This document shows positions 56,074-57,734 of a DNA stretch of 64,000 nucleotides, one piece after another. The notes beneath the pieces were generated by a model. That model saw only the letters and a program-made list of their open reading frames with translations, had not been told where the DNA came from and searched no databases. Made by a program: the position numbers and the translations under genes. Within the stretch, counting starts at the first letter, position 1, and each line of letters begins with the position of its first letter. The DNA lies in NCBI GenBank assembly GCA_031655335.1, contig CP134226.1:62001-126000 (forward strand). The letters run 5' to 3'. Origin of the DNA: Thalassospiraceae bacterium LMO-SO8 (GTDB lineage: Bacteria > Pseudomonadota > Alphaproteobacteria > Rhodospirillales > Casp-alpha2).

Positions 56074-56493
56074 ATGAACGCCTTTGACCCCATCTCCGCC
56101 CTCGCCGGCGGCGCCCTGATCGGCCTGGGCGCGGTGATCCTGGCCTTGTTCAACGGCCGGGTCGCGGGCATCAGCGGCATCCTGGGCGGCCTGTTGGACG
56201 GCGAGCGCGCGAACCTGACTTGGCGTGCGGCCTTCGTCGCCGGGTTGATCGGCGCCGGGTTCCTCGGCCTGAAGCTGGTTTCCCCCGACGTCATGATCGC
56301 CGCCGACTGGCCCACCCTGGTCATCGGGGGGGTGCTGGTCGGTATCGGCACGCGGCTCGGCAGCGGCTGCACCAGCGGCCATGGCGTCTGCGGCATGGCG
56401 CGGGGTTCCATCCGGTCCATCGCCGCGACGGCGGTCTATATCACCGTGGCCGTGACGACCGTGTTCGTCACCCGCCACCTGATCGGAGGTTGA
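56074..56493 (+). CDS. YeeE/YedE-family transporter half, sulfur type
   Basis: The 139-residue membrane protein has four hydrophobic helices. The conserved cysteines are in GSGCTSGHGVCGMARGSIRS (about 99 and 106), the YeeE/YedE motif thought to pass thiosulfate or other sulfur compounds. It is a half-length protein; the second half is the next gene. The start is ATG 56074, without a strong ribosome site. It is downstream of the exporter gene on the same strand. Confidence 0.85.
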   Translation: MNAFDPISALAGGALIGLGAVILALFNGRVAGISGILGGLLDGERANLTWRAAFVAGLIGAGFLGLKLVSPDVMIAADWPTLVIGGVLVGIGTRLGSGCTSGHGVCGMARGSIRSIAATAVYITVAVTTVFVTRHLIGG

Positions 56494-56498
56494 GGGCG

Positions 56499-56912
56499 AT
56501 GGCGCGCCTGCTCGTCAGCCTGATCGCCGGGGGATTGTTCGGTGCCGGCCTGATTATCTCGCAAATGGTCAACCCGGCCCGTGTGCTGGGTTTTCTTGAT
56601 ATCGCGGGGACTTGGGATCCGACCCTCGCGTTCGTCCTGGCCGGGGCTCTCGCCGTTTCCGTTCCCGGCCACTGGCTGGCCCGTCGCCTGGGGACACCCG
56701 TCCTCGACAGCAAAAGCCACCTGCCCCCGCCGGGCCGCCTGGACGGGCGCCTGATCCTGGGCGCCGTGCTGTTCGGGATCGGCTGGGGGCTTGTCGGGTT
56801 CTGCCCCGGCCCCGCCCTGGCCGCCCTCGGCACGGGCGATAACAAGGCCCTCGCCTTCCTCGCCGCCATGGCCGCCGGCATGTGGCTTTACGGGCGCATC
56901 GCCCGGCGGTGA
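56499..56912 (+). CDS. YeeE/YedE second half (DUF6691 type)
   Basis: The 137-residue membrane protein has four hydrophobic helices and the conserved segment IGWGLVGFCPGPALAALG with its single cysteine. GGAGGTTGAGGGCG precedes the ATG, an excellent ribosome site. With the upstream half it forms a split YeeE/YedE transporter (the two halves of the fused protein). They are six bases apart and should be cotranslated. The substrate is probably a reduced sulfur compound. Confidence 0.85.
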   Translation: MARLLVSLIAGGLFGAGLIISQMVNPARVLGFLDIAGTWDPTLAFVLAGALAVSVPGHWLARRLGTPVLDSKSHLPPPGRLDGRLILGAVLFGIGWGLVGFCPGPALAALGTGDNKALAFLAAMAAGMWLYGRIARR

Positions 56913-56927
56913 GGTAAACTCCCCGCC

Positions 56928-57734
56928 ATGACCGATGCTGTTCTCCTTCTTCCCTCCATCACCGACGTTGACGTGGGCCACCGCGGGCAAGTCGTCGTCT
57001 CGGGCTCTCACGGCGGGCTTTATCCGGGATACCTGGCCGCCAAGGCGGGCCTCCGGGCCGTCGTTCTGAACGACGCCGGCGGCGGGCTGGACGGCGCCGG
57101 GGTTGCCGGCATCCATGCCCTCGACCAGAGCGGCATGGCCGCCGCCGCCGTGTCCCACCTGTCGGCCCGCATCGGCGATGCCGGCGACATGCTGGCGCGG
57201 GGCGTCATCTCCACCATGAACGCCACCGCCGCGGATTTGGGCGTCACCGCCGGGATGACCTGCGCCGAGGCCGCCGAACGTCTGACCCAGGCAATCATTC
57301 CGGCCGCCGGCCTGCCCCCGGTCGACGAAGGCCGCCGCGTCATCGCCCGGAACGGCGGCGCCGATGTGGTGCTCGCCGACTCGGCGTCTCTGGTCGGGGC
57401 CGAGGATGTCGGCCGGATCGTCATCACCGGCTCCCACGGCGGGCTGGTCGGCGGCGACCCGGCCCGCGCCCTGAAGACGGCGGCATCCCTGGCTGTTTTC
57501 AACGACGCCGGCGGCGGCATCGAAGATGCGGGCGTGACCCGCCTGCCCGCCCTCGACGCCCGCGCCATTCCGGCGGTGACCGTCGCCCATGTCTCGGCAC
57601 GGATCGGTGACGCCGTATCGGCCTGGGAAACGGGCGTGATATCCCACGCCAACGCCGCGGCGACGGCCCTGGGCGCGCGGCCGGGGGTATCGCTTCGGGA
57701 TTGGGTCGGCGTGGCTTTCCCCGCGCGGCCTTGA
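56928..57734 (+). CDS. Protein made of two copies of a GSHGG domain, unknown function
   Basis: The 268-residue product has no signal peptide. It is built from two related segments, about residues 19-110 and 161-254. Paired motifs are SGSHGG (25) and TGSHGG (167), VLNDAGGG (46) and VFNDAGGG (190), HLSARIGD (77) and HVSARIGD (221), GVISTMNA (92) and GVISHANA (236). The repeats suggest an internal duplication with a twofold active site rich in Gly, His, Asn and Asp. I recognise the domain only as uncharacterised. GAGGTAAACTCCCCGCC precedes the ATG; it starts 15 bases after the YeeE half, so the three may be one operon. Confidence 0.78.
   Translation: MTDAVLLLPSITDVDVGHRGQVVVSGSHGGLYPGYLAAKAGLRAVVLNDAGGGLDGAGVAGIHALDQSGMAAAAVSHLSARIGDAGDMLARGVISTMNATAADLGVTAGMTCAEAAERLTQAIIPAAGLPPVDEGRRVIARNGGADVVLADSASLVGAEDVGRIVITGSHGGLVGGDPARALKTAASLAVFNDAGGGIEDAGVTRLPALDARAIPAVTVAHVSARIGDAVSAWETGVISHANAAATALGARPGVSLRDWVGVAFPARP

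Follow-up and report, generated by a model that had tools for sequence, protein, structure and literature searches.

The window, that is the whole stretch of 64,000 nucleotides from Thalassospiraceae bacterium LMO-SO8 that was analysed, carries on its forward strand a gene for a 268-residue protein built of two similar halves. The split YeeE/YedE pair that had been read upstream of it is real, both genes matching transporter profiles, and the second of them ends 15 nt before the two-domain gene. The features of the locus are as follows.

56074..56493, + strand: YeeE/YedE N-part gene (Sulf_transp, E 8.8e-8; match 56074-56490)
56499..56912, + strand: YeeE/YedE C-part gene, DUF6691 (DUF6691, E 4.8e-42; Sulf_transp, E 4.8e-7; match 56499-56909)
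56928..57734, + strand: two-domain protein of 268 aa, ATG start (ORF and translation, 60-row alignment, AlphaFold2 model, dN/dS)
56928..57350, + strand: first half, aa 1-141 (self-alignment, profile comparison, column counts)
57351..57731, + strand: second half, aa 142-268 (self-alignment, profile comparison, column counts)
57003-57017 (aa 26-30) and 57429-57443 (aa 168-172), + strand: GSHGG of half 1 and half 2
57069-57086 (aa 48-53) and 57501-57518 (aa 192-197), + strand: NDAGGG of half 1 and half 2
57162-57179 (aa 79-84) and 57594-57611 (aa 223-228), + strand: SARIGD of half 1 and half 2
57201-57221 (aa 92-98) and 57633-57653 (aa 236-242), + strand: GVIS..N, as GVISTMN in half 1 and GVISHAN in half 2
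57111..57284, + strand: stretch aa 62-119 matching Pfam DUF1805 (28.2 bits, E 2.3e-6)

The four motif pairs reported in the first-pass annotation were confirmed in the 268-aa ORF, where they follow one another in the same order in each half, and the internal duplication of one domain that they implied was borne out by direct comparison. When aa 1-141 were aligned locally with aa 142-268, 48 of 109 columns were identical and the score was 199, while 1000 shuffles reached a mean of 42.2 (sd 7.3) and a maximum of 69. BLASTP of one half against the other gave an E of 1.5e-17, and the N-half and C-half profiles drawn from the 60-row alignment matched with a probability of 100 and an E of 1.2e-42. 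The gene is present in one copy in the window genome and, since comparison with three same-genus copies gave dN/dS values of 0.22-0.31, it is maintained under purifying selection. On the - strand, a 403-aa ORF at window positions 56439-57647 overlaps the two-domain gene; it was taken as a high-GC artefact because the codon structure of the relatives gives it no support.

Relatives of the protein are spread over Proteobacteria, Actinomycetota, Myxococcota, Thermodesulfobacteriota, Thermaceae and haloarchaea. Among 41 near relatives of the window genome there were 11 matches at E<=0.001, including a doubtful one in G025 (67 residues, E 5e-4), and the clear carriers were the window genome, 6 of 7 same-genus and 3 of 17 same-family genomes. 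The protein was found in 35 of 308 drawn alphaproteobacterial genomes and, with an earlier and smaller profile, in 6 of 398 drawn genomes of the phylum. Plasmids contributed 13 records from Alphaproteobacteria, haloarchaea and Rhodococcus, 12 of them annotated as 'hypothetical protein' and one without annotation, while the viral contigs of IMG/VR gave 8 pattern matches and no relative. A scan of genome contigs provided 59 two-domain proteins of 253-299 aa, including one truncated at a contig end, and 21 single-domain proteins of 118-139 aa; the locus counts given below are not a census, because these are 80 of 102 relatives. No homologue of known function was found in these searches, in agreement with the initial view of an uncharacterised protein family. 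Extra tandem domain copies were seen at G559:C188:717-1520 and G672:C33:61041-61835; both genomes have the two-domain form as well.

In a domain tree that is unrooted, draws on few columns, has an unsettled bootstrap and so gives no direction between single-domain and two-domain forms, the N halves, the C halves and the single-domain forms fell largely apart (5 changes, against a shuffled mean of 63.6), with the single-domain forms in one group at 96/88 support. The exceptions were the C halves of L078, L020 and L021, which stood apart from the other C halves. Judged from the sequences, the duplication is real and also old, as the N halves, C halves and single-domain forms group largely separately.

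The proximity of the YeeE/YedE genes had led to the proposal of a tie to sulfur metabolism, in which the protein would work with the transporter. To weigh it, 104 loci (9 from plasmids, 80 from the genome contigs and 15 from the relatives' genomes) were searched for the window pair by tblastn at E<=1e-4. The pair was present in 5 loci, all from the window's genus, and in none of 97 loci outside the genus, although many contigs are short and a diverged pair could escape at this threshold. Even within the genus the arrangement varies, as G004 has the gene (L128) and lacks the pair on its 10.9-kb contig, and G003 has a called ORF of about 520 aa between the pair and the gene. Beyond the closeness of the pair in the window and its recurrence in five same-genus genomes, the proposal can draw weakly on 6 of 104 loci with a nearby relative of PF03601, a family named 'putative sulfate exporter', and on a GD_AH-family dehydratase in two loci (L033 and L035), the GD_AH family being one that includes sulfolactate sulfo-lyase. 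Homologues with a single copy and no sulfur link, which the first-pass annotation had named as grounds for refutation, do exist and tell against the sulfur part of its reading: 21 of the 80 genome-contig loci are single-domain and none of these has the YeeE/YedE pair. The sulfur reading is consequently considered very improbable, and the YeeE/YedE genes appear to be genus-level neighbours only, outside the function proposed below.

The alignment of 60 two-domain sequences was then used to see how far the motif residues are fixed. In half 1, S27, D49 and N98 are kept in all 60 sequences and H28 in 59, and in half 2, S169, H170 and D193 are kept in all 60 and N242 in 59. Conservation is lower for R81 (52), R225 (56), N48 (43) and N192 (43), with His as the usual substitute at N48 and N192. 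The first His is replaced in more divergent plasmid-borne members, by N in L014 and by Y in L020 and L021. The earlier proposal of invariant His, Asn, Asp, Ser and Arg residues thus stands for His, Asp, Ser and N98/N242 (59-60 of 60), and holds less well for the two arginines and for N48 and N192.

An AlphaFold2 model of the window protein, computed from this protein and its relatives from the genome-contig scan only, showed two alpha/beta domains of about 120 residues each with a pLDDT of 96.8 and a pTM of 0.93; the model of a single-domain relative reached a pLDDT of 88.1. In half 1 of the window protein the strands run at 22-28 (ending in S27-H28), 44-48 (followed by D49), 71-75 (followed by the loop with S79, R81 and D84) and 93-97 (with S95, then N98), and half 2 repeats the same layout with strands 164-170, 188-192, 216-219 and 237-241. 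The conserved residues therefore sit at or just past strand ends. Both halves have Ser-His, Asn/His-Asp-Ala-Gly, Ser-Ala-Arg-Ile-Gly-Asp and Ser-x-x-Asn placed at the C-terminal ends of successive strands or directly behind them, which suggests two equivalent or nearly equivalent putative active sites per chain, an assignment resting on conservation and the model. Sequence and the confident model together show a soluble pseudo-dimer in which two extended DUF1805-like alpha/beta domains are joined in one chain, and the single-domain relatives would do the same job as homodimers.

The kinship to DUF1805 (PF08827) is seen at several levels. The window protein, at 28.2 bits, does not reach the Pfam gathering cut-off of 29.5; among the aligned sequences, 42 of the 60 two-domain ones match DUF1805 at E<=0.01, as do 2 of the 21 with a single domain. 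Profile-profile comparison with DUF1805 gave probabilities of 96.6 for the N halves and 92.0 for the C halves over about 60 columns, and of 89.4 for the single-domain relatives across all 95 DUF1805 columns, whereas none of 66 control comparisons, made with 33 clusters of unrelated neighbours, exceeded 4.5. In structure comparison, 1QW2 ranked first by Z in each of the two VIA lists, at 7.9 for 95 aligned residues (rmsd 3.2) and at 6.8 for 68 (rmsd 2.0), above runner-up rows at Z 5.4 and 4.4, these being modest values given that a VIA Z under 8 may reflect merely a common arrangement. Foldseek gave 1QW2 probabilities of 0.54 and 0.91 with E of about 1.0 and 0.22, and for both models no row at E<=0.001. 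A phosphohistidine 'swivelling' domain (rows at Z 4.2 and 3.8, among many ties) and TIM-barrel decarboxylases (Z about 4) were also considered as fold relatives and set aside. In the part of PMC9425974 consulted, 1QW2 is a DUF1805 protein and DUF1805 has no known function. By profile comparison, each half is distantly related to DUF1805, as an extended form that lies outside the Pfam membership rule. The profile search of the halves, put forward with the first reading of the sequence, has in this way uncovered distant uncharacterised kin and no homologue of known function.

A different origin is suggested by the Y-family polymerase profile IMS (PF00817), whose cut-off of 23.2 is passed by the window protein with 24.1 bits (aa 88-134, 57189-57329, on profile positions 31-74 of 148) and which 34 of 60 relatives match at E<=0.01. 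DNA polymerase IV chains were also matched by profile, with an E of 0.007, and a 27-residue structural match with an rmsd of 0.5 goes in the same direction; if the IMS match were real the protein would derive from a Y-family DNA polymerase. However, the likeness is confined to a stretch of 30-60 residues, GVIS..N..A..LGV..GM, which also matches DUF1805; the structural matches are local (about 27-65 residues), the rest of the polymerase fold and its catalytic parts are absent, and the match of the whole domain to DUF1805 contradicts such an origin. A polymerase ancestry can thus be given almost no credence, and the likeness most likely reflects a common local strand-helix element or chance. Since the IMS cut-off is passed by 0.9 bits and more than half of the aligned relatives match the profile, automatic annotation may misname the family as a DNA polymerase fragment. 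For the window protein, Pfam gave no match beyond DUF1805 and IMS, NCBIfam gave only chance-level matches, polymerase and other, far below cut-off, and neither PHROGs nor the PDB searched by sequence gave anything significant.

Clustering of the ORFs that adjoin the gene in the relatives' loci made a thiamine-diphosphate (ThDP) enzyme the commonest neighbour, and Pfam searches of the 113 proteins encoded directly beside the gene in the 59 two-domain loci placed TPP_enzyme_C (20) and E1_dh (6) as leading families, with IclR_C (5), Biotin_lipoyl (5) and Transket_pyr (3) also present, among the 25 listed of 99 families. Judged by homology to the conserved copies (at least 50% identity), 37 of 59 two-domain loci have the ThDP enzyme, the E1 alpha/beta pair or both in the flank (ThDP enzyme in 33, E1 pair in 16, both in 12); one or the other lies at most 300 nt away in 31 of 59, and the ThDP gene itself in 23 of 59, several with short overlaps or gaps. 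In these data, where the gene calls of unannotated loci were home-made and miss genes and many contigs end near the gene, both a close ThDP enzyme and an E1 pair were absent from the flank in 22 of 59 two-domain, 20 of 21 single-domain and 9 of 9 plasmid loci. The single-domain loci had an E1 pair in one case and a close ThDP enzyme in none of the 21; in three of them (L095, L102 and L107) a remote ThDP paralogue (27-31% identity) adjoins the gene, which may be a separately evolved association with this type of enzyme.

Four loci (L032, L039, L062 and L136) share the order E1a-E1b-DctP-DctM-ThDP-protein on one strand, with an IclR gene in three, while in G009, G022 and G023, which belong to the same family as the window genome and lie outside its genus, E1a-E1b-ThDP is divergent from the gene. 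The E1a-E1b-TRAP-ThDP-protein arrangement looks like a conserved catabolic operon unmatched to described pathways; the literature search found no described AHAS-like/acetoin dehydrogenase/TTT operon. The partner ThDP enzyme is acetolactate-synthase-like (AHAS-like) and carries the TPP_enzyme_N/M/C domains and an NDER...GDGG...NN signature, in which NDER, presumably the site of the catalytic Glu, is kept in 22 of 22 aligned copies. Its nearest PDB chains are BbmA and acetolactate synthase (E about 1e-64), and four copies fell below the cut-off of each of the best 25 NCBIfam models listed. The E1a protein is nearest to pyruvate dehydrogenase E1 alpha, and no E2 gene was noticed among the genes scanned in these loci.

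The association was also examined at the level of whole genomes, with the ThDP protein of G009 as query against the 308 alphaproteobacterial genomes (E<=1e-150). An orthologue of 59-70% identity occurs in 27 genomes, and 25 of these, from 15 families, also carry the protein, the exceptions being G547 and G577. Set against the 35 protein-positive genomes, this gives a Fisher P of 1.6e-26, a value in which kinship is ignored. The two genes lie within 10 kb in 19 of the 25 double-positive genomes; among the other six, G674 has them 1.09 Mb apart on one contig and is the only firm case of unlinked co-occurrence, as the five others are draft genomes with the genes on different contigs. Ten of the 35 protein-positive genomes, the window genome included, are without the ThDP enzyme.

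Among the 41 near relatives, a close ThDP orthologue (68-100% identity) and an E1b orthologue (62-100% identity) were found only in G009, G022 and G023, all protein-positive, and G015, which is without the protein, has a ThDP paralogue of 37% identity. No orthologous ThDP enzyme was found in the window's genus, and the E1b match of the window genome has 42% identity, as in most relatives, which is what an ordinary paralogue would show. The linkage and co-occurrence with the AHAS-like ThDP enzyme/E1 pair, seen in 37 of 59 two-domain loci and in 25 of 27 ThDP-positive genomes, do not extend to the window's genus, where the protein presumably works with other partners, given this lack of an orthologous ThDP enzyme, an E1b at paralogue level and a gene under purifying selection.

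Other contexts recur at lower frequency. A lipoyl/biotinyl-like protein of 73-79 aa follows the gene in 7 of 104 loci (L067, L074, L079, L081, L082, L084 and L134), and in six of the seven a PF03601 membrane protein also follows; HyuA/HyuB-type hydantoinase genes are near the gene in 4 of 104 (L041, L042, L044 and L063). In 5 of 104 loci, from haloarchaea and one alphaproteobacterium, the gene is accompanied by a RuBisCO-like protein and a four-carbon acid sugar kinase. This pairing is known from D-apiose breakdown, of which 3-oxo-isoapionate-4-phosphate, a hydroxylated chemical relative of acetolactate, is an intermediate. According to the part of PMC6302742 consulted, RuBisCO-like proteins decarboxylate or transcarboxylate/hydrolyse 3-oxo-isoapionate-4-phosphate. 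The contexts with RuBisCO-like protein and sugar kinase also point to small hydroxy/keto acids.

Taken together, the gene contexts, conserved residues and predicted structure argue for a pseudo-dimeric enzyme of small hydroxy/keto-acid catabolism that acts on a substrate or product of the ThDP enzyme, a reading to which we give a probability of about 0.5. The protein would carry out one catabolic step on a small hydroxy- or keto-acid, catalysis being suggested by the residue pattern, and its companions in the pathway, indicated by gene order and co-occurrence, would be the ThDP-dependent E1 alpha/beta pair and a TRAP or TctC-type uptake system. The pathway partnership itself draws support from conserved gene order and co-occurrence with the ThDP enzyme and E1, so that in most lineages possessing the ThDP enzyme the family very probably belongs to ThDP-enzyme catabolism and not to sulfur metabolism.

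The same tight operonic pairing, with the ThDP gene within 300 nt in 23 of 59 loci and short overlaps or gaps in several, would also fit a non-catalytic accessory, either a ligand-binding regulator or an assembly/stability subunit of the ThDP enzyme or E1, and such a role finds further ground in a fold that is too small and unlike known ThDP-linked enzymes and in a DUF1805 domain itself without known function. We nevertheless regard an accessory role as rather unlikely, since 10 of the 35 genomes with the protein have no ThDP enzyme, its neighbours in haloarchaea are unrelated enzymes, and the clusters of His, Asp, Asn, Ser and Arg, conserved in both halves, look catalytic. A narrower form of the enzymatic reading takes account of the fact that AHAS-type ThDP enzymes make acetohydroxy acids and that their superfamily makes or breaks such acids: the protein could represent a new enzyme class, for example an isomerase or decarboxylase, acting on branched 2-hydroxy-3-oxo acids of the acetohydroxy-acid kind. 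This would unite the AHAS-like ThDP contexts with those of RuBisCO-like protein and sugar kinase, and is put forward as a speculative and decidedly unlikely specification of the substrate.

With the enzymatic reading in small hydroxy/keto-acid catabolism as the preferred one, a widespread unannotated protein can be assigned a repeat architecture, a relative in fold and a metabolic setting that is open to test, and the substrate of the operon, if found, would be a first handle on the function of the DUF1805-like domain.

Compared with known systems, the partner ThDP enzyme has the domains and the signature of the AHAS branch, yet in four copies reaches the cut-off of none of the 25 top NCBIfam models listed. 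With DUF1805 (PF08827; COG3377/arCOG04424; PDB 1QW2, TA1206), of which B. subtilis YunC is presumably a member, the window protein has a whole-domain profile match in common; unlike DUF1805, it has two copies per chain and in addition an N-terminal strand-helix bearing GSHGG, and the GSHGG, NDAG and SARIGD motifs are absent from 15 aligned archaeal DUF1805 sequences. The single-domain GSHGG proteins of Burkholderiales, Thermaceae and others, for which the searches gave no family name, have this domain with its motifs, their profile matching the two halves at E 2e-50 and 8.7e-46, and differ from the two-domain window protein in having one copy and a branch of their own in the tree.
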